Origin: Verrucomicrobiales bacterium
GTDB taxonomy: Bacteria > Verrucomicrobiota > Verrucomicrobiia > Limisphaerales > JAQGOV01
Assembly (NCBI GenBank): GCA_028293425.1
Contig: JAQGOV010000180.1
Location: 1-37,273, forward strand
DNA: 37,273 nt
Direction of reading: 5' to 3'
Of this stretch, positions 12,615-23,940 are shown piece after piece. The notes beneath the pieces are model-generated. The model was given only the letters and a program-made list of their open reading frames with translations, was not told the DNA's origin and searched no databases. Both the position numbers and the translations under genes were made by a program. How positions within the stretch are numbered: the first letter of the stretch is position 1; each line of letters opens with the position of its first letter.

Positions 12615-13307
12615 TTAATCCTTCTCCGGAGTATTTTGAAGCTCACCGGCGTTCATGGGCTCTCCACGGGTGCCATCCTTATCACGCCATTTCTTCACTT
12701 GGTCCGGGGTCACAGGACCCGCTTTGTTACCCCATTCGCTACGAACATAGGTGATCACCGCGGCGATCTGCGCGTCGGTGAAACTTTCCTTCCAGGGGGG
12801 CATGGCGTTGTTGAAGTCTGCACCCTTTACATTCAAAGGCCCGGCAACACCATTTAAGACAATACGAATAATCCGGTTCGGGCCTTCCGCCAAAACCCAT
12901 TCCGATCCAGCAAGGGGTGGAAATTGGCCAGCCAAACCTTGGCCGTTCCCCTGATGACACGCCACGCAAGCAGTGTTGAAAACCTTTGCTCCTTCGTTTC
13001 GAACGGCTTGGATCGGATCAACCGGGTTCGCTCCCTGTACATCAGCAATTGTGTAATAAGGATCGTAAACTTCGGCGGGAAAAGCGCCTGCCTTGTTCAT
13101 GACGTCTCCGCCGCGATCAAGAATATACAAATCGGCAAAATACAGCAGAACCAACGTCAGGATAATAAAGACAATCGGGATGGGCCGGCTTTCTGCGGTT
13201 GGCTCCGCAGTGTCCGCGAAAACCGCAGCTCTGGATCCGCGAGATTCTCCACGAACCGGGGACGCTGCCGAAGAGTAAGGCTGATTCTTTTTGTTCTTCT
13301 TGCTCAT
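12615..13307 (-). CDS. Membrane-anchored monohaem cytochrome c (CcoP/c-type cytochrome-like)
   Basis: A 230-residue cytochrome c with a basic N-terminus, one membrane segment at about residues 44-63, and a periplasmic domain carrying a single haem site CVACH (residues 114-118). NAMPPWKESF probably supplies the axial methionine. The position, last of the operon after CcoN- and CcoO-like genes, is that of CcoP in cbb3 oxidases, but true CcoP has two haems and a different membrane topology, so this is at best an analogue. Its ATG overlaps the preceding stop as ATGA. It probably passes electrons between the ACIII module and a terminal oxidase. Confidence 0.85.
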   Translation of the reverse strand: MSKKNKKNQPYSSAASPVRGESRGSRAAVFADTAEPTAESRPIPIVFIILTLVLLYFADLYILDRGGDVMNKAGAFPAEVYDPYYTIADVQGANPVDPIQAVRNEGAKVFNTACVACHQGNGQGLAGQFPPLAGSEWVLAEGPNRIIRIVLNGVAGPLNVKGADFNNAMPPWKESFTDAQIAAVITYVRSEWGNKAGPVTPDQVKKWRDKDGTRGEPMNAGELQNTPEKD

Positions 13308-14035
13308 TTCGCAGGATTGGCTGAAGGGGCGGGAGCACTCGCGGCTGGGGCTCCACCCGCAGGCTGCGCGTTCGTGGCTGAAGCCGGGGCGGCATTAGTA
13401 TCCTGGCCAGCAGGCTTCGGCTTGGGAGGCAGGGGCGCTTCAAACAAACTGACGTCTGAACGCAGGCTCAGGATGTAGGCTGCCAGCGCCCGGGCATTTT
13501 CGCTCGGAATGATTTCCCAATCCGCAGGTTCTCCTTCAACTTTCAAGGCATCCGCCGAAGGCTGTTGACCTTGTGTCAGGTGATTGCGCTGAAATAGAAA
13601 AGGGTAACCAGGCATGCCGCCCATATTCACGGACTGCGGCTTGTAGAGGAGCTTCAGCAATTCAATTTCGTTCGTGTGGCGGACGCCAGCATTGGCCAAA
13701 TCGGGTCCCACCCGGAGATCACCCAGCAGCACTGGATAATCTTTAAGATAATCCTGCGCTACCGAACGGCGGTTGCCCCAGCCTCGCGCAATGTCGCCGC
13801 CGAGATTCCTCGGACGAACCTGGCGAGTATGGCATTCCACACAGCCGAGGGATCGATAAACCTCCGCACCCTGTCCGGCCATTCCAGAGTGGCCGATCGG
13901 ATAAAGTTGGCCTGTTTCGGCAATTTCTGTGACCTGCTGGTTGCCCATTTTCATTTGCGGCATCAACAGAAAGCCCCAAAAGGAACTCGCCAACGTCAGG
14001 AAAATGCCAAAGAAAATCAGGGGACCAGAGTTCAT
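13304..14035 (-). CDS. CcoO-like monohaem cytochrome c (cbb3 oxidase subunit II-like)
   Basis: A 243-residue protein with an N-terminal membrane anchor (residues 5-25) and a haem c motif CVECH at residues 65-69 in the context GAEVYRSLGCVECHTRQVRP. The following DLRVGPDLANAG and RGWGNRRSVAQDYL segments are characteristic of CcoO. In cbb3 oxidase this subunit passes electrons to subunit I. The last 40 residues are a low-complexity Ala/Pro tail absent from classical CcoO. It overlaps the CcoN-like gene by ATGA and the downstream cytochrome gene likewise, so the three should be made in fixed ratio. The partner subunit I lacks catalytic ligands, so the usual oxidase role is doubtful. Confidence 0.88.
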   Translation of the reverse strand: MNSGPLIFFGIFLTLASSFWGFLLMPQMKMGNQQVTEIAETGQLYPIGHSGMAGQGAEVYRSLGCVECHTRQVRPRNLGGDIARGWGNRRSVAQDYLKDYPVLLGDLRVGPDLANAGVRHTNEIELLKLLYKPQSVNMGGMPGYPFLFQRNHLTQGQQPSADALKVEGEPADWEIIPSENARALAAYILSLRSDVSLFEAPLPPKPKPAGQDTNAAPASATNAQPAGGAPAASAPAPSANPAK

Positions 14036-15519
14036 CGTTTCACCCCCGCAATCGGAGCATCATTACCCGTCACAAAAGCAATCGCAGAGCGCCTGAAAGG
14101 CTCGGAATGGGTGCGCGCCAGTTTGAGCAGATTCAAAAGGAAGGCGACTTGGCCAGCCGCTATCAACGCGCCACCCAGCGCAGCGAGAATTAACCAGATA
14201 TTTGTGGAGCGAAGGACATCATGAAAGGTCACGTTCGGATTATTGATTCCCTGCCCTTGGACAATGCCGGCGATGAGAAGACCAATTCCCGCTAAAAGCG
14301 TGCCGCCCGCTGTGGCCCCGAAATGTAGCTTGATCAGTTGTTCGGAAGGCCAAGCGATATTCGTCAAGCGCGGAACCGCATAATAAATTGCAGCGAACAC
14401 CGCCAGTGCGAAGAAACCGAAGATGAAAAAGGTATGATAAGCGCCCCAGGCATAAGTAAACGAGGTAACCATGCTCACGCTTCGGAAACTCAGGAGAATC
14501 TGCAGAACGTTGGCGAGCAAGAAGAAAGCGGCGCTTGCGACCGTAAAATTCAAGAGTGGCGTGCGCTTTATTGTATCCATGTCGCCATCGATTGTCTGAT
14601 ACCAGTTCAATGCCATCCCAACCAGCGGCAAGAGGAGCATCAGATTCGCCCCGATGCTCGTGCTAATCATCCAAGCTGGGAAAGGCCCCCCCACCAGCGC
14701 ACCAAAGCAAGTCCAGTTCGCGAAAAAGGCGTAAGCCCAGAAGCTGAACACAGCCAGGCCCCGGCTATAAAGCGGCCGACCCAGCAGCTTGGGCAGAAAG
14801 TAATAAATGCTCGCCAGGCCAATGGAGCCAAGCCACAGCATCAGGAAATTGTTCATGTACCAGGCATTCACCACCCCCTGCAGCACGCCACGGACCTGGA
14901 CCGAATTCAGCAGGAGATACGAGGCGGAATAGATCCATGCAAACCAAAACAAACCGCCTACCAGATACCATTGGGAAACGTAAACATTGCGTTCGCGGCG
15001 TGAATGAAAGCTCACCAACGCAGCCACCGCGATCACCATGTGCGCAATGAATAAGATCGGTCCGGCCAGCCTTGGGAATTCGAGCCATTTAAAGCTCGTC
15101 GACATCCCGGCAAAGATGCCAATCACACCGAGGGTGACTCCAATGTTCCAAAAGGCCCCAGCAACTAAATAGGGAAATTGGCAGCAAAGCGTCACCCGAC
15201 CCAGCCGGCAAAGCATCCAAATCAAAACGCCATACGCCGCCTGCGAAGCAAAACCATAAAGCAGCGCATTCTCAGCCACAGGTCGTAAACGGCCAAAAGT
15301 GAGGACTGGGCAACCTGACAAAAACTGCGGTGCGACGAGTTGTATCGAAGCCAACAACCCAAGCACGGTCGCGAGGACCAGCCAAACACCGGCACTGGTA
15401 AAGAAGAACAAAACCGGGGGACGACAAGAGGCATCGATCTCGGCGGCAGTCGCTCCCATTTCCACCGGCGTGACGGACGTCGCGGTTTCCACAGGGGTCG
15501 ATGTTGTTGTTACGCTCAT
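14032..15519 (-). CDS. CcoN-like haem-copper oxidase subunit I homologue lacking haem and copper ligands
   Basis: A 495-residue polytopic protein clearly homologous to cbb3 oxidase subunit I: FGRLRP (75-80), IYYFLPKLLGRPLYSRGLAV (238-257) and IYYAVPRL (378-385) line up with CcoN. The ligand positions do not. The low-spin haem histidine in CcoN's RLRPLHTN is Ala82 here; the first copper ligand in WWYGHN is Asn223; the HH pair and the cross-linked tyrosine fall in a segment (258-283) with no histidine; of the HVH pair at most His362 (AYHTFF) remains. Oxygen reduction therefore looks impossible, and a structural or electron-transfer role within an ACIII assembly is one explanation. Alignment was by eye from memory. 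The N-terminal 30 residues are Thr/Val-rich and extra. Confidence 0.85.
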   Translation of the reverse strand: MSVTTTSTPVETATSVTPVEMGATAAEIDASCRPPVLFFFTSAGVWLVLATVLGLLASIQLVAPQFLSGCPVLTFGRLRPVAENALLYGFASQAAYGVLIWMLCRLGRVTLCCQFPYLVAGAFWNIGVTLGVIGIFAGMSTSFKWLEFPRLAGPILFIAHMVIAVAALVSFHSRRERNVYVSQWYLVGGLFWFAWIYSASYLLLNSVQVRGVLQGVVNAWYMNNFLMLWLGSIGLASIYYFLPKLLGRPLYSRGLAVFSFWAYAFFANWTCFGALVGGPFPAWMISTSIGANLMLLLPLVGMALNWYQTIDGDMDTIKRTPLLNFTVASAAFFLLANVLQILLSFRSVSMVTSFTYAWGAYHTFFIFGFFALAVFAAIYYAVPRLTNIAWPSEQLIKLHFGATAGGTLLAGIGLLIAGIVQGQGINNPNVTFHDVLRSTNIWLILAALGGALIAAGQVAFLLNLLKLARTHSEPFRRSAIAFVTGNDAPIAGVKR

Positions 15520-15554: not shown

Positions 15555-15917
15555 TTACTCGTATTGGCTCGGCTTTTCCGGCGCTTTGGGCGGAACAAAA
15601 TTGGCTTTATCAGCCCGGGTAATCATCGTCTTCCGCGCGGCCTCAGGGTTTTTGTAATCTTGGAGCGTGAGTTCTTTCGCGCGAGCGATTGGAAGACTCA
15701 CAATTCCTTTCCCTTGATCCACCCAGCCGTATTCGTTCAGGCCTTTCGCCTCTGCCTGGTGGATGTCAGCCAATGCTTTCCTTCGCTCCTCAACCCGGGC
15801 CTGGTTCACTGGAGTTGGTTGATTATAGCGCTGCATGGCCTTCACCAGCAGAGCCACAACCAGCAAGCTGCCAACGACTCCGACTATGTAAGCTAAAGCT
15901 GATGTCCTGTTTCTCAT
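15555..15917 (-). CDS. Small single-span membrane protein of the ACIII operon
   Basis: A 120-residue protein with one N-terminal membrane segment (about residues 8-26) and a charged periplasmic or cytosolic tail containing NEYGWVDQGKGIVSLPIARA. It has no cysteine, so it binds no haem c. AGGAGA seven bases before the ATG supports the start, and it begins only 9 bases after actF. I do not recognise a named family; the position suggests an accessory subunit linking ACIII with the oxidase-like module. The IVSLPIARAKEL segment resembles a motif found in small proteins next to oxidase genes, but this is only an impression. Confidence 0.8.
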   Translation of the reverse strand: MRNRTSALAYIVGVVGSLLVVALLVKAMQRYNQPTPVNQARVEERRKALADIHQAEAKGLNEYGWVDQGKGIVSLPIARAKELTLQDYKNPEAARKTMITRADKANFVPPKAPEKPSQYE

Positions 15918-15926
15918 GGTTTCTCC

Positions 15927-17153
15927 TTAATCCGCAGCCGCGATCGGCGGACGTCCACCACTGTGATGCACACCTAAAGCCTCGTCCATGCGAGGGTCCT
16001 TCAGGGGATACGGCGGATGTTTCTTGAAATAAAGGATGAATACAAAGGATAGCACCCCACCAATAAAAGCCATGCAGGCGATGTCCAGCCAATGAATGAT
16101 AAAGCCGTCCGGGTGTATCACGGGCATGATGTTGAAAGACATATCGCAGAAATGCATCATCCAGGCCCAGATGCACAAAGGGATCATGACCGGCAGGGTC
16201 AGCTTGGCATCAATGCGAAGCATCGTCAGAAACGGCAGCAGGAAATGGCCGAAAATCATCAGCATTCCAACTTGCCACCAGGATCCCTTTTCGCGCTGCA
16301 CATACCAGAATGTTTCCTCAGGCATCGCCGCGTTCCAAATCAGGAAATATTGGGAGAAAGCAATATACGCGTAGAACACAGTAAACGCGAAGAACAGAAC
16401 GCCGGTGTCATGGAAAGTTCGGTTATGCACTACCCCGTTCAGCGGACCGGTTCGCTGCAACACCACCGTTATCACATATAATGTCGCCAGCGTGGTCCAG
16501 ACACTGCCGGCAAAGTAGTAAACGCCATACATGGTGGAGAACCATTGGTACTCCAGGGACTTCATCCACATGATGGCGCCAAGCGTCAATGAGAACGCAA
16601 AAACGAAGATCCCGTAAGCTGCGTGCTTCCGTAACGCATAGGTGCATTTAGGATCACCCGTTTTGTCCTGGAGCAACGACCAATGCCGCATCCGAAAGGA
16701 CAACCAGAACCAGGCCGCAAAAATCACCAGCGCCGAAATATAAAAACCTTTCAGCGTGAACAAAGGCTGCTTGGCGGCCAGCGCTGCATCAGGATGGCTG
16801 AGATTCTGCATCCAGGAGTAGATGTGCGTCGGCGCAAGGATGGCGATCGGCAGGAAAAGCAGGCCCATGATGGGTAGCAAACAGGCCAGATGCTCGCAAA
16901 CCCGGCGGATTGGCATCGTCCAGTTCGCATCAAACAAATGATGGATGATGGAGAAGAACAATCCTCCCAGGCAAATGCTCAGGAAGAACATGTAGGCAAC
17001 CAGATACGAATAACCGAACTGCCTTGGGTTGGACGCCCACCCAATGGCGCCCAGCAGGCCACCCACAGCGAGCAATATCAAGGGCAGCTTGCCCCATTTG
17101 GCGCCGATGGCTATCGGGGCCGAAGGATTGGTTGCAATGGCAGGGGAACTCAT
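15927..17153 (-). CDS. actF: Alternative complex III subunit ActF (NrfD-like quinone-interacting membrane subunit)
   Basis: A 408-residue polytopic protein with about ten membrane segments, the second NrfD-like subunit of ACIII. Typical stretches are YMFFLSICLGGLFFSIIHHL, the AILAPTHIYSW loop, and FCDMSFNIMPVIHPDG towards the C-terminus. ACIII takes electrons from menaquinol or ubiquinol and gives them to cytochrome c or directly to an oxidase; ActF is the smaller partner of ActC. ATG 17153 lies 2 bases after the actE stop; a 44-codon upward extension of the frame overlaps actE and lacks membrane-protein character. The C-terminal tail is short and cytoplasmic. Confidence 0.92.
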   Translation of the reverse strand: MSSPAIATNPSAPIAIGAKWGKLPLILLAVGGLLGAIGWASNPRQFGYSYLVAYMFFLSICLGGLFFSIIHHLFDANWTMPIRRVCEHLACLLPIMGLLFLPIAILAPTHIYSWMQNLSHPDAALAAKQPLFTLKGFYISALVIFAAWFWLSFRMRHWSLLQDKTGDPKCTYALRKHAAYGIFVFAFSLTLGAIMWMKSLEYQWFSTMYGVYYFAGSVWTTLATLYVITVVLQRTGPLNGVVHNRTFHDTGVLFFAFTVFYAYIAFSQYFLIWNAAMPEETFWYVQREKGSWWQVGMLMIFGHFLLPFLTMLRIDAKLTLPVMIPLCIWAWMMHFCDMSFNIMPVIHPDGFIIHWLDIACMAFIGGVLSFVFILYFKKHPPYPLKDPRMDEALGVHHSGGRPPIAAAD

Positions 17154-17155
17154 AA

Positions 17156-17812
17156 TTATTTCTTTTGAACGCCAGCGCGAGGAGCCACAGGCCCTAATAA
17201 AGTGGGCAGCACATCTGCCGGGACGTCCTGTTCGATACCCAACCGGCTGCGCTGCAAAGCACGCAGATAGGCGATGATCGCCCAACGATCTTCAATACTG
17301 ACCAGCCCACCATAAGGGCCCATCAGATTCTTGCCGTAAGTGATCGTGTTGAAAATTTCGCCATCGGACTGCTGGACGACTTTCCGAGTCTTCGAATCGT
17401 GCAGGTCTGCAATCACGGCCATGCCGAATTTTGTGGTAATGCCTTTTCCATCGCCCATTCGGCCATGACAAGGGGAGCAACTGATGTTGAACCGTTGCTC
17501 GCCTCGTTCCATCAACTGCGCCGTTACCGGCATCGGAATGGTGGCAACATAATTGGTCGTGCCAGCCACTTTTCCAGTGTTCACCGGAGAATCTTCAAAC
17601 GCTGAACCGCGTGCCACTGTGCCATCCACCGGCAGTTGAGAACTCAGCCCATTCGCGAAAACTTCACCACGAGTTTGGGGACGCAGCTTGGGCTGTTTGT
17701 CCATGTCCGGGAAAATTTCCAGGGGCGGCTTTCGGGAAATTGAGCCGCGCTTGCCAGCGGTGGCAACCACCACCACAACCAGAATTACAAAGGTTAGAAA
17801 GAAGTAGCGCAT
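17156..17812 (-). CDS. actE: Alternative complex III monohaem cytochrome subunit ActE
   Basis: A 218-residue cytochrome c with an N-terminal hydrophobic anchor (residues 3-18), the family-typical EIFPDMDKQPKLRPQ stretch, and one haem motif CSPCH at residues 112-116 in RFNISCSPCHGRMGDGKG. MGPYG or a nearby methionine should give the sixth ligand. In ACIII this subunit receives electrons from the pentahaem ActA and hands them on to the oxidase or soluble carriers. There is no lipobox. It overlaps actD by one base and precedes actF by two. Confidence 0.92.
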   Translation of the reverse strand: MRYFFLTFVILVVVVVATAGKRGSISRKPPLEIFPDMDKQPKLRPQTRGEVFANGLSSQLPVDGTVARGSAFEDSPVNTGKVAGTTNYVATIPMPVTAQLMERGEQRFNISCSPCHGRMGDGKGITTKFGMAVIADLHDSKTRKVVQQSDGEIFNTITYGKNLMGPYGGLVSIEDRWAIIAYLRALQRSRLGIEQDVPADVLPTLLGPVAPRAGVQKK

Positions 17813-18396
17813 TAATCTCTCACTTCCTCGATGTGCAAGCCGCCGGCTGATTCCAGCAGCTTGCGTGTTTCGATGTCGGAGAATTTCGGGTCAGCCGCCT
17901 CGATCGCGATAAAGAAGCGGTCGTGCGTAACCTTTGAAAAACGATCGCTCTTAAAGAGCGGATGATGGAAGCGCGGGAGGCGATTCAGGAACAGCATTCC
18001 AAACAGTGACCCAAAAGAGCCCAGTAGAATCGTCAATTCATAGCAGACCGGGAATGAATAGATAGGGCTGAACAACGGCTTACCGCCCACCACTATGGGG
18101 TAATCGTAAGCGTTCATCCACCAAATCATGAGCATGCCCGCCGTGAATCCAGTCAAGCCGCCGCAGAAGGCGAACCAACCCACGGGCGATTTACCCAGGC
18201 CCATTGCTTCATCCATCCCATGCACCGGGAAGGGAGTATAAACATCCCAACGCCGGTAACCGGCGTCGCGCACCATCGATGCGGCGTGCAACGCACCACC
18301 TGCCGATTCAAATTCAGCGAGCAGCCCGTATTTGACGGTTGGCACCATGGGACGTGTTTGAACAACTGGAATCGCGGTTGCAGTTGGAGCAGCCAT
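17812..18396 (-). CDS. actD: Alternative complex III subunit ActD (DUF3341)
   Basis: A 194-residue membrane protein with two membrane segments (around residues 75-95 and 120-145) and soluble flanks. AASMVRDAGYRRWDVYTPFP and VHGMDEAMGLGKSPVGWF are diagnostic of the DUF3341 family, which is ActD. The role is structural; no redox cofactor is expected, and no haem motif is present. The ATG overlaps the actC stop and its stop overlaps the actE start, both by one base. Confidence 0.93.
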   Translation of the reverse strand: MAAPTATAIPVVQTRPMVPTVKYGLLAEFESAGGALHAASMVRDAGYRRWDVYTPFPVHGMDEAMGLGKSPVGWFAFCGGLTGFTAGMLMIWWMNAYDYPIVVGGKPLFSPIYSFPVCYELTILLGSFGSLFGMLFLNRLPRFHHPLFKSDRFSKVTHDRFFIAIEAADPKFSDIETRKLLESAGGLHIEEVRD

Positions 18397-19865
18397 TAGT
18401 GATGTCCTCCGTGTTTGGCGCCGCCCAACGGATGATGCGGATCGGCTTGCGGGGTTACGCCTTTGACTTCAGAAATGGCGATCATAGGCAAATACCTCAT
18501 GAAAATCAGGAACAGCGTCATAAACAGCCCAAAAGTTCCAATGAACTGCCAAATATCTACCCAAGTGGGCCGGAAGTAAGCCCAGATCGCTGGGATGTAG
18601 TCACGGTGCAAGGAGGTGACGATAATCACGAACCGTTCAAACCACATCCCGATGTTCACAAAGATGGAGATAATGAATACAATCACCATGTTTCTGCGCA
18701 CTTTCTTAAACCAGAAAAGCTGTGGGCAGATGACGTTGCACGTAATCATCGACCAATAGGCCCACCAATAGGGCGCGGGTTCCACGTTCCAAAGGGGTCC
18801 GAAGATGAACGGGTCGGCTGCGCGGTTGCGCATAAACACGAACCGTTCGTAAGGATTACCGCTGTACCAGGCGATAAAGAACTCCATCCCGTAGGCGTAA
18901 CCAACGATTGAGCCGGTCGCCAGGATCACCTTGCCCATCAATTCGACGTGTCGGACGGTGATCAAATCCTGCAGCCTGCAAAGCACGCGCAACGGAATGA
19001 GCAGAGTCAGCACCATGCCGAATCCGGAGAAAATCGCGCCAGCTACGAAATAAGGTGGAAAGATGGTCGTGTGCCATCCAGGAACCTGCGACACGGCGAA
19101 GTCGAAAGACACGATCGAGTGCACGGAGAGCACCAGCGGCGTGGAAAGCCCAGCCAGCAACAAATACGCTTTCTCGTAATTGCTCCAGTGACGATTCGAA
19201 CCAGTCCAACCGAGGGCGAACAAGCCATAAGCCACCTGGCGGATGCGGGTCTTGGCGCGATCGCGCATGGTCGCGATATCAGGAATCAATCCCATGTACC
19301 AAAACAAGAGGGAGACTGTGAAATAGGTCGAAACAGCAAACACGTCCCAAAGCAGCGGAGACCGGAACTGCGGCCAGATTGAATTCGCATTTGGCAGTGG
19401 CAGCAGCCACCAGCCATACCAAATACGACCGATATGAATGAGCGGGAAAATACCCGCGCACATCACCGCGAAGATTGTCATCGCTTCAGCAGCACGATTG
19501 ATTGATGTGCGCCAGCGCTGACGGAGCAGGAACAAAATCGCGGAGATCAACGTTCCAGCGTGACCGATGCCGATCCAGAAGACGAAGTTGGTGATGTCCC
19601 ATGCCCAACCCACCGGAATCATCAAGCCCCACACACCAACGCCCGTGGACATCAGGTAGGCCACCATTGAGAAGCATACTATTGTTAGCAGCACGCTCGG
19701 AACAAAAACAAACCACCACCAGGATGGGGTCTTGCCTTCGATCACGGCTGCAACCTGGTCGGAAATCCAACCGAGGCTGCGCTCATTGCTCACCAGCGGT
19801 TGACGCTCCAACTCTTTGGGAGTATGCGCCAAGGCTGGAACACTCTTGATAATCTGCTCGGCCAT
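18396..19865 (-). CDS. actC: Alternative complex III subunit ActC (NrfD-like)
   Basis: A 489-residue polytopic protein with about ten membrane segments, homologous to NrfD/PsrC quinone-binding subunits. [20 protein letters not shown] and [20 protein letters not shown] are typical, as is [18 protein letters not shown] near the C-terminus. With ActF it forms the membrane core, where quinol is oxidised. The C-terminal tail is histidine-rich (GGAKHGGHH). Its ATG overlaps the actB stop by one base as TAATG. Confidence 0.94.
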
Positions 19866-22800
19866 TAGTGCGCTCCTTTCTCGGCAGCGTGACCGGCGGC
19901 TTCATGATGTTCGCCTCCAGCGGCCGCACCGTGGTGCGATTCAAACGGATTGCCCTGGGTCTTCATATATTCCTGCAGGTTAATCGGGAATTCGTTGAAA
20001 TCGGGCATCTTCGGATTTGGATTACGGATCCGCGCCAGGTAAGTCAGGCGCGGCCTGGTGTCCAGGAAACCGAGAACCGAATAATTGCGTTCCTGCTTCT
20101 TCATTTGGGAAACGCGACTGTCCGGATCCAATAGATTGCCGAACACGATCGCTTCCGCAGGGCAGGCCTGCTGGCAAGCGGTTTTTACCCCGCCATCCGG
20201 CACCTGCACATTGCCGCTCTGGCCCGCTTTGACCTTTTGGGAGATCTTCGCGCCTTCGATCCGTTGCACGCAGAAGGTGCACTTCTCCATCACGCCGCGT
20301 TCGCGCACGGACACGTCCGGATTCTTGGCCAGCTTCAGCAGCTGCCACTCATCCTCCGGCTTGGTATGGTAAGTGTAAGGATCCTTGGCCCAGCGGATCA
20401 GATTCCACTCACCATCGGTCCCACTCACTAGCGGGCTCTTGTAAAGATCCTTGAGCAGGTGCTTGTTATAATCGAAGAAATTAAAGCGTCGGACCTTATA
20501 CGGGCAGTTGTTGGAACAGTAACGCGTACCAACGCAGCGGTTGTAGGCCATGATATTCAGGCCCTCCTCGTCATGCACGGTCGCATTGACGGGGCAAACA
20601 CTTTCGCAAGGCGCATTTTCGCAATGCTGGCAAAGCATCGGCTGGTTCACGACCTGCGGATTATCCACCTGGTCCTTCGCAGGCTTATCCATGAGACCGC
20701 TGAAATAACGGTCGATACGCAGCCAGTGCATTTCGCGATTACGCGACACCTGATCTTTGCCGACGATCGGAACATTATTCTCACTTTGGCAGGCGAGCAC
20801 GCAGGCATTGCAACCCACGCAGGTCGTGAGGTCGATCGTCATGCCCCACTGATGAATTTTGCTATCGAGCACTATTGGCCCGAGGCTCACTCCCGACTGG
20901 CCGTTTCGCTTCTCCACCCCGCGGTAAGGGTGCTCGTAAATCATCTGCGGCAGCTTGTTGGTGCCGTAAACCTGCGCCTGCTCCGGTGTCGGATCCACCA
21001 GCACGAGATGGCCAGTGTGCGCCTCAAGGTCCATGTTTTTGGCGAAACCGGGATGTTCCTTGTACTGCTGCCAGTTGGCTTCCCGGACAATCGGGCGGCC
21101 GGACATTGATCCGTGTTCCTGCGTGCAGGAGACCTTGTAAGTCTGCCCTGTTTTCTTCAGCGCGGCGCCGGAGGCAATAAAATCAACATTCGATGTACGC
21201 AGCCGATAGGCGTTATAGATGCCAACACCGTCCCCTACTCTTCCCGAGCCGCCGCTTGCTCCCGTCTTTCGTCGTCCGTAACCGAACGAGAGTACCACGG
21301 AGAATTCAGCAATGCCTGGGGTTACCCACACAGGCGCCTGGACAGAGTTTCCATCCACGGAAATCTCGACCACATCCTCATTTTTAACATTGAACGCCTC
21401 GGCCGTGGCTCGGCTCATCTGCACCACGCCATCCCACACTGTCTTGGTGATGGGGTCAGGCAATTCCTGGAGCCAGCCGTTATTATTAAACCGGCCGTCA
21501 TCCATCTTGTAATCGCGGGCAAGAACAACCTCAATCTTGTCTTTTGACGGTGCGGGCAGCGCCTGGGCGTTGTTCAGCAGCGCAGTTGCCTTATCCGTGG
21601 CGATGTTCGGCGTGATAAATTTCGCGCCACTGCCTTCCAGGTATCCATCGTGGAGGAACTTCTTCCATTTCTCCTCCAGCAAATCACCACCGCTTAGCTT
21701 GCTAAAGGTCTCACGGACGATGTCGTGCGGTCGGGTTACCTCCAAGCCGCCAATCCGGGCCAGCACTTCCAAGTCTGTCAGCCCAGCAAACAACGGCGCG
21801 ATCAGCGGCTGAATGGGAACAAGCGTGTTATCGCTGGTCCGGGCATCGCCCCAGGATTCAAGATAATGTGCTGCCGGGATGTGGAGATCAGAAATGGCGA
21901 ATGTTTCGTCTTCGTAATAACCGAGGCGAACAATCGTTTTGACGTTTTGACGCAACGCTTTGAAATCGACATCGGCAGGCGCGTTATAAACAGGGTTGCC
22001 GCCCAGGATCACCAGCGTGTTCACTTGGCCCTGTTTCATGGACGCGCCGAGTTCCGCAATGGAACCAAAGGAACGGTTGCCTTCCACGAACTGGACGGTT
22101 TTGCCAACGTTTCCAAGGGCTGCATTAATCAGGTGCGCGAGCACGTGCACCGCTGCAGGCTGGCGATACCCAGCCATCACCAAGGTTGCTCCCTTGTTCG
22201 CTGCCAGGTCAGCAGCGCATTCTGCGATCCATTTTGGGTCAACACCCTGTGGCAACGGGAATTTACGAGCCAGACCTGAAACAGCCGCATTGTCCGGTGC
22301 GATCTGGGTTGCAATTGCGGCAGCCACAGGCAGAATCGCACTGGCAGGAACACGCAGACGATGGTCCGCATTCGCGCCTGTCAGGGTCATCATGCTCTCT
22401 ACCGAATAGAGGCGGTTCATTGCATCGCCGGGCTTCGCGACCTTCCTGCCCCATGAAAACCCGCGGCAATGACGGTAAGTATCCTCTTCGCTCCCAACAA
22501 AATCCGAATCGAGCGAGAGAATGACCTTCGCTTGGTCCAGGCGGTAGAACGGCGCGACTGGCGTGCCGGCGATATCGCTCAGAACAGCAGCGTCCTTGGC
22601 CAAGTCCACCGGTTCATATTGATACCATTTGGCCTGGGGAAATTTCTGGGCGATCGCCGCCTGCAAACGGGCCCTCGAGGGCGAACTACTTTGCTCCAGC
22701 AGGAAGGCCAGCCCTTGTCCACTCGGAGTTTGTCGCGAAATATTGGCCAGAGCGTCCAGGGCCGCGGCCTTGGTCGCGGTGTTGCCGCCTTGGGCAAAGC

Positions 22801-23293
22801 GTTGCGCGCGGTCCGGATCGTAAAGATTCAGGATCGAAGCCTGTGCGAAGGTGTCTGTCCCGCCATGACGAAAACGCGGATCTTTGCTGTTCTGAGTGTC
22901 ATGAACCGGATGCTCCGGATTGCCCTCGATCTTCGTTGGCCGTCCATCGCTCGAACGAACCAGCAGCGGAATTGCGCTTAAACGCGTGGGCATCGCTGTC
23001 GCGTAGAACTGGGGTACGCCATGGATATAATTTTCAGGCTGCTTTCCGAAAGGCAGAATCCGTTCCTCCGGTCTGCGGCAACCAGTGATGCCAATGCCCG
23101 CCAGCAAAAACGAAGCGGACATGATTTTGACGAAATGCCGCCGGGAAACAGGGTCCTTCAGCTCGCTTGCGCCGGCTGGAAACTCACGTTCCACCCATTG
23201 GTGAAATTCCGGGCTGTCAGCAAGGTCATCCATGCTGCGCCAATAGCGGATGCCGCTTTCCGGTTCGGGGCAAAGTGGGGGAATGGTTTTCAT
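19865..23293 (-). CDS. actB: Alternative complex III subunit ActB: fused molybdopterin-enzyme-like and iron-sulfur domains
   Basis: A 1142-residue extracytoplasmic subunit. The N-terminus has a twin-arginine motif SRRHFVKIM (Arg51-Arg52) followed by a hydrophobic stretch and a lipobox-like GITGC (Cys72), suggesting Tat export and lipid anchoring. Residues about 80-720 resemble molybdopterin oxidoreductases; in ACIII this domain carries no molybdenum cofactor. The C-terminal domain is ferredoxin-like, with Cys825, 828, 831 and 835, then 888, 891, 896 and 900, then 920, 926 and 930, plus CTFC and CQQACP later, enough for the three [4Fe-4S] and one [3Fe-4S] cluster of the family. ATG 23293 overlaps the actA TGA as ATGA; a 22-codon upstream extension falls inside actA. 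Confidence 0.95.
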
Positions 23294-23940
23294 CGATGAC
23301 AAGCGGAACAATTTTGAGAAGCGTTGACCTTCCAATCCTTCATTTTGTCCTTGCCCCAATCCTTGGGCAGGTTGGCATGAGGATCCCAGGCCAGATCGGT
23401 AATCTTATCAGCAGGGCGCAAATTGGGGGCTGGGTTACGATGGCATTCCAGGCAAAAGGTCATGCTTAACGGCTTCGCATGGCGCACTTCGTCCATTTTA
23501 TTGATTTCACCATGGCAATGAACGCAGCTCACACCCCGGTTCACATGCACGGAATGGTTGAAGTAAACGTAGTCGGGCAACTTGTGGATTTGGACCCATG
23601 GAATGGACTTCCCAGTGGCAGCACTTTCACGCACCAGCGCCAAACGGGAATCATCCTTCAGAACCTGGTTGTGACAGTTCATGCAGGTTGAACTGGAAGG
23701 CACATTGGAATACCAGGATTTCTCGACGTGACTGTGACAATATCGGCAATCAATTCCAAGCTGATCCACGTGGACTGAGTGAGGGAAAGCGACGGGCTGA
23801 ACAGGCTGATAACCCACGCGGGCGTACTTGGGGGACATGTAGTACCAAACGCCCGCGGTGGCTGCTCCGCCCAAAAGCAGCACGCCGACGAGGATCATCA
23901 GCGGCAGCCGGTTTGTCCACTTGGGAAATATTTCTGCCAT
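23290..23940 (-). CDS. actA: Alternative complex III pentahaem cytochrome subunit ActA
   Basis: A 216-residue cytochrome with one N-terminal membrane anchor (about residues 12-34) and five haem c motifs: CRYCH (65-69), CMNCH (86-90), CVHCH (139-143), CLECH (163-167) and CSACH (211-215). Five haems and this spacing fit ActA of ACIII. It accepts electrons released by ActB. This is the first gene of an operon of ten cistrons running to 12615. The sequence before ATG has only GAG next to the start, so the ribosome binding site is weak. Confidence 0.95.
   Translation of the reverse strand: MAEIFPKWTNRLPLMILVGVLLLGGAATAGVWYYMSPKYARVGYQPVQPVAFPHSVHVDQLGIDCRYCHSHVEKSWYSNVPSSSTCMNCHNQVLKDDSRLALVRESAATGKSIPWVQIHKLPDYVYFNHSVHVNRGVSCVHCHGEINKMDEVRHAKPLSMTFCLECHRNPAPNLRPADKITDLAWDPHANLPKDWGKDKMKDWKVNASQNCSACHR

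Follow-up and report, generated by a model that had tools for sequence, protein, structure and literature searches.

Repeated loss of the active site in a retained haem-copper oxidase subunit I of ACIII operons in Verrucomicrobiota

The window analysed here, which is the whole 37,273-nucleotide stretch of contig JAQGOV010000180.1 from a Verrucomicrobiales bacterium, contains an alternative complex III (ACIII) operon that ends with CcoN-, CcoO- and cytochrome c-like genes. From ActA (23940) to the last cytochrome c gene (12615), all genes share the minus strand; several of them overlap, and no gap exceeds 35 bases. The annotated genes are listed below in the order of transcription.

23290..23940, minus strand: ActA, pentahaem cytochrome c (five CXXCH motifs)
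19865..23293, minus strand: ActB, with a molybdoenzyme-like B1 and an Fe-S B2 domain (Pfam and NCBIfam search); start inferred, the mechanical ORF extending to 23359
18396..19865, minus strand: ActC, NrfD/PsrC-like ACIII subunit (Pfam NrfD, E 8e-19)
17812..18396, minus strand: ActD, ACIII subunit (Pfam ActD, E 1e-66)
17156..17812, minus strand: ActE-like monohaem cytochrome c (profile search)
15927..17153, minus strand: ActF-like ACIII membrane subunit (position, length and conservation); start inferred, the mechanical ORF extending to 17285
15555..15917, minus strand: smX, small conserved protein between ActF and pN (ORF and position in relatives)
14032..15519, minus strand: pN, CcoN-like protein of 495 aa (COX1 Pfam, alignment and predicted fold)
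13304..14035, minus strand: pO, CcoO-like monohaem cytochrome c of 243 aa (Pfam FixO, E 5e-15)
12615..13307, minus strand: pP, membrane-anchored monohaem cytochrome c (Pfam Cytochrom_C, E 1e-15)

The window pN thus occupies its place in the order ActABCDEF-smX-pN-pO-pP. Its upstream neighbour smX matched no Pfam or NCBIfam family and is found between ActF and pN in most relatives. The pO gene overlaps pN by 4 bases, and its product carries one haem motif (CVECH, residues 65-69); a Met-Pro motif in this protein corresponds to the axial Met of CcoO. The pP protein is CcoP-like yet has a single haem motif (CVACH, residues 114-118).

The pN gene runs on the minus strand, which the preliminary description of this DNA had left unstated, from an ATG at 15519 to a stop at 14032, and it is intact and full length as that description had claimed. 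Its product belongs by sequence and predicted fold to subunit I of haem-copper oxidases. The Pfam COX1 model matches residues 36-451 with 155.8 bits (cut-off 34.8; E 2e-45), and the solved CcoN chains 3mk7, 9g6b and 8smr match over nearly the full length (E ~1e-28), in line with the CcoN alignment reported earlier for most of the protein. A single-chain structure model built from 49 family members has a mean pLDDT of 92.5, and in a Foldseek comparison it returned the CcoN fold of the cbb3 oxidase 3mk7 with TM values of 0.85/0.91. On the other hand, the protein scores only 137 bits with the NCBIfam ccoN equivalog TIGR00780, far below the cut-off of 583.

The active site of pN was scored by aligning it with CcoN of Pseudomonas stutzeri and 21 other canonical CcoN. 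All seven active-site residues (H60, H207, Y251, H257, H258, H345 and H347) are present in 22 of 22 canonical proteins and none in the window pN, which has A, N, A, G, A, Y and T, respectively. The replacements, all identified by alignment, lie at these positions.

15276-15274, minus strand: Ala82 in place of the low-spin haem ligand H60
14853-14851, minus strand: Asn223 in place of the CuB ligand H207
14721-14719, minus strand: Ala267 in place of the cross-linked Y251
14703-14698, minus strand: Gly273/Ala274 in place of the CuB ligands H257/H258
14439-14431 (Tyr361-Thr363), minus strand: Tyr361 in place of the haem b3 ligand H345 and Thr363 in place of the low-spin haem ligand H347

Consequently, the bis-His pair of the low-spin haem (Ala82, Thr363), the three CuB histidines (Asn223, Gly273, Ala274) and the haem b3 proximal His with its cross-linked Tyr (Tyr361, Ala267) are all missing. 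Since every canonical CcoN retains the complete set, this loss is not alignment noise. The protein contains six histidines in total (160, 172, 362, 399, 433 and 471), none in a ligand position; His362 aligns with the Val between two ligand histidines. The first reading of the sequence had named Ala82, Asn223, the missing HH pair and Tyr, and a single His (362) near the HVH site, and the alignment reproduces each of these; it places no His at any of the six ligand positions. Given that the active-site residues are absent, it is nearly certain, as judged from the sequence, that the window pN does not catalyse oxygen reduction.

The same operon order recurs across the sampled class with either an intact or a degenerate pN; now and then a fetched locus has additional cytochromes, is split, or gave no match for smX. 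The coupling of pN to ACIII, CcoO-like and cytochrome-like genes noted at the outset is therefore a recurrent arrangement. When 289 genomes of the phylum were searched with the window pN, 91 gave a match. Sixty-one places scored above 190 bits, and those fetched were ACIII-linked; the matches below 190 bits were mostly canonical CcoN and distant ACIII-linked forms of methanotrophs. The query matched 256 of 293 genomes from the order to which the window belongs, canonical CcoN being counted among these matches. In the class, nearly all genomes with a strong ActD match also have pN; G008 is one exception. This draft genome of a methanotroph-family relative (L286, G008:C1:228000-247000) has ctaE- and ctaC-like genes directly after ActABCDEF-smX, and pN, pO, pP and ctaD are jointly absent, as if one block was lost. 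In the two ACIII operons retrieved from other classes, ctaCDE follows and pN is absent.

Altogether 230 sampled pN were classified by their active-site residues, with sampling steered by queries so that the counts are no population frequencies. The distribution is bimodal: 112 proteins have all seven residues, 61 have none, 41 have one and 16 have two to six. Fully liganded pN occupy the same operon slot in Opitutaceae, Cerasicoccus, Coraliomargarita and others. Among the partial forms, L036 and L039 keep the low-spin His pair and have lost the binuclear site (HNSQRYH), while in two Opitutaceae MAGs only the Tyr and the CuB side are lost (L117, HHSARHH; L122, HHQRHHH). The single differing residue of L171 could be a sequence error. 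An intact and a degenerate pN occur together in one draft genome, G326 (loci L184 and L205). The interpretation given at the outset is supported in part: every ligand is lost and such loss recurs in other ACIII operons, but the intact pN of many relatives and the repeated loss with intermediates were unforeseen.

The intact pN is probably a working terminal oxidase, since it is the sole recognisable one in two genomes of Opitutia UBA7350 (G146 and G001; 1.3 and 1.7 Mb, 98-99% complete). Neither genome has a COX1-family gene besides the intact pN, and a search for cytochrome bd and COX2 found neither. Intact ACIII-linked pN (e.g. L037, L038 and L040) lack the Glu323 of canonical cbb3 oxidases and have L, Q, A or I at this position; protons may therefore take a different path in them. 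Short CcoN-like proteins of other classes (L072, L073, L076-L080 and L085) form a group apart, with all seven residues and Gln at the Glu323 position; the CcoO-like partner is ~194 aa long.

In the phylogeny, pN is monophyletic with respect to canonical CcoN (support 100/100). Constraining the degenerate pN to one group costs 59 log-likelihood units (AU p=0.0022), and intact and degenerate forms interleave on the ACIII tree; a single ancient loss is thereby rejected. The IQ-TREE phylogeny of concatenated ActABCEF requires seven state changes, six of them forced by supported branches. With partial forms included in the counts, loss-only parsimony gives at least 7 losses on the pN tree and 14-15 on a FastTree phylogeny of 105 ACIII loci. 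The number is stated as a range because the two trees conflict: the pN tree clusters many degenerate sequences, whereas the ACIII tree disagrees on several long-branched ones, a conflict that could stem from long-branch attraction or from replacement of pN alone. With denser sampling, the window pN groups with degenerate pN of its order (clade support 86/98), and other families of this order retain an intact pN. In a smaller ACIII sample lacking those degenerate neighbours, the window's operon lies beside intact ones with support of 0.91-1.0. Taken as sequence evidence, these results indicate that pN descends from a working oxidase, that Verrucomicrobiota lost its active site on several independent occasions, and that the protein was retained on each of them.

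Retention of the degenerate protein was assessed from its coding sequence. Pairs of degenerate pN show dN/dS values of 0.09-0.50, with 0.13-0.16 in a closely related set from methanotrophs, and the ORFs are full length in nearly all sampled degenerate copies; on ORF integrity and dN/dS together, a pseudogene was rejected. The preliminary claim of selection thus stands as purifying selection in the ligandless relatives, the window's lineage itself being one without a close relative for comparison. By the same figures it is very improbable that pN is a relic, a dying oxidase gene held by chance or operon position. Degenerate pN do evolve faster than intact ones, as seen in their long branches, but nearly all copies remain full length under these constraints, and many families of the order have degenerate ones.

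The partner genes are conserved as well. The CXXCH motif is kept by pO in 40 of 40 loci and by pP wherever it was found. The position of the CcoO axial Met in pO is occupied by Cys or His in some degenerate lineages (L051, L053, L059, L064; L061, L069), a point against the electron relay proposed below. Residues specific to pN that differ from canonical CcoN persist in ligandless members (e.g. G89, W101, P149, W195 and Q214), as expected for a binding surface. Such persistence would also suit a purely structural function, in which pN, with smX, would stabilise or assemble ACIII, and pO and pP would be kept since they fold with pN and would stand outside the main electron flow. This alternative is rather unlikely, because it would not require the haem c motifs that pO and pP consistently retain.

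The retained cytochromes, the retained oxidase body and the linkage to ACIII point instead to a scaffold that passes electrons onward. Our preferred reading, to which we assign a probability of about 60%, is that pN is an ACIII-linked oxidase turned into a non-catalytic anchor for pO and pP, which would relay electrons from ACIII to a separate oxidase. The ancestral pN would have been a working oxidase that took its electrons straight from ACIII. In several lineages, including that of the window, the haem and copper site would have been lost and the oxidase body retained as a membrane anchor holding pO and pP, the two monohaem cytochromes c, against ACIII. Electrons would leave ACIII through ActA/ActE and travel via pO and pP to a separate haem-copper oxidase, which in some families would be the A-type enzyme encoded next in the operon and in the window's genome the caa3 or canonical cbb3 oxidase encoded elsewhere. 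Within this scheme we infer the docking of pN to ACIII (from the operon), the electron route and the identity of the receiving oxidase.

The distribution of other oxidases bears on this relay. Among 65 surveyed genomes, degenerate pN is always accompanied by at least one other COX1-family gene, and only intact pN occurs alone. Counted over loci with enough sequence, which are not independent and for which no significance is claimed, an A-type oxidase gene follows pNOP in 13 of 30 degenerate loci (ctaD in 12, ctaC in one) versus 6 of 66 intact ones; in the remaining 17 of the 30 none was seen nearby. The recipient oxidase is accordingly not fixed across pN loci, given that the A-type gene also follows some intact pN and is absent near many degenerate ones. 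In G179, which lacks bd, the adjacent ctaD is the only other haem-copper oxidase. With an A-type gene directly following in several families and being the sole other oxidase of G179, a scaffold or electron-transfer role of pN between ACIII and a separate oxidase, as first proposed from the window, fits the gene content. In ACIII-pNOP-ctaDE operons, the fetched 5 kb showed no CtaC; the idea that pO or pP stands in for this CuA subunit was nevertheless rejected, as there is a COX2 gene another 3-5 kb downstream.

Elsewhere the window's assembly encodes a canonical CcoN-CcoO fusion and a caa3 subunit I, both with intact ligands. Its second ACIII operon (L285, G000:C260:25000-42843) is of the usual ACIII-caa3 kind, with ctaCDE downstream and no pN. 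Since the assembly is a draft of 88% completeness with 6% contamination, these other oxidases and the second ACIII could partly stem from another organism. The second operon with its own caa3, like the ACIII without pN of other classes, argues against the adaptor reading, since pNOP is not needed for ACIII-to-caa3 transfer generally.

The occurrence of ACIII without pN in other classes also weighs against pN being a proton-conducting ACIII membrane subunit that lacks redox centres and couples quinol oxidation to proton movement. The retained oxidase body, predicted with high model confidence, and the cofactor-free membrane subunits of ACIII already proposed to move protons (PMC5928083) would agree with such a function, which we nevertheless consider improbable. 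Slightly less probable still is a redox-active degenerate pN that binds haem or another cofactor through different residues. One or both low-spin histidines are present in L036, L039, L051-L054, L058 and L059, but the six histidines of the window pN all lie outside the ligand positions and the replacements vary by lineage (A, Q, S, N, G and P).

When compared with known systems, pN resembles CcoN of cbb3 oxidases (3mk7) in its predicted fold (TM 0.85, ~24% identity in the structural match), in the FGRLRP and YYFLPK landmarks and in the adjacent CcoO-like gene; it differs in lacking the six ligand histidines and the Tyr, in its ccoN score (137 versus 583) and in its ACIII operon. PMC8498564 credits Refojo et al. 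2010 with a C-type oxidase linked to ACIII in Opitutaceae and in verrucomicrobial methanotrophs, and by operon arrangement and clade the window pN belongs there. The literature consulted treats these forms as cbb3 oxidases; in the present analysis those of Opitutaceae are split into intact and ligandless, and those of pmoA-bearing genomes have at most one of seven residues.

The latter comprise five genomes with two to four pmoA copies, each with an ACIII operon in which pN has 0 or 1 of 7 residues and adjoins an A-type ctaD; pN is the only CcoN relative that the query found in them. The ACIII-adjacent genes of verrucomicrobial methanotrophs have been described as a cbb3 oxidase (PMC6688271, PMC11102522, PMC8498564), and a published review counts such a gene among their three terminal oxidases. 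Because pN is ligandless and the only CcoN relative found, the "cbb3 oxidase" of those descriptions is probably no oxidase.

The ACIII-caa3 and ACIII-aa3 supercomplexes of Rhodothermus marinus and Flavobacterium johnsoniae likewise have oxidase genes after the ACIII operon, and electrons go directly from ACIII to the oxidase; unlike for the pN operons, the descriptions consulted mention no ligandless oxidase module between the two. A precedent within ACIII itself is the ActB1 domain, a molybdoenzyme relative without a prosthetic group (PMC5928083), where the body of an enzyme was also retained after cofactor loss. The folds are unrelated, however, and the loss in pN is repeated, with intact relatives surviving in the same operon slot. 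The cofactor-poor CydA paralogues of cytochrome bd offer a possible analogy, to which we give no weight. A literature search that covered few subscription papers returned no description of a haem-copper oxidase subunit without ligands in ACIII operons. The condition of pN, an oxidase subunit I kept after its active site had repeatedly been lost, is real, widespread and undescribed in the searchable literature; the relatives and fold of pN are already known.

These results make a homology-only annotation of an ACIII-linked "cbb3 oxidase" unsafe. They also provide a natural series within one operon slot, with a working oxidase at one end, partial forms in the middle and a protein without any ligand at the other end, by which the origin of respiratory supercomplex subunits becomes directly testable. 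That the haem-copper oxidase body was repeatedly made a permanent haem-free adaptor of ACIII, a docking hub with the attached cytochromes connecting to other oxidases, stands in our judgement at even odds. If true, it would represent a general route from terminal oxidase to wiring subunit, taken at least 7 and perhaps at least 14 times in one phylum.
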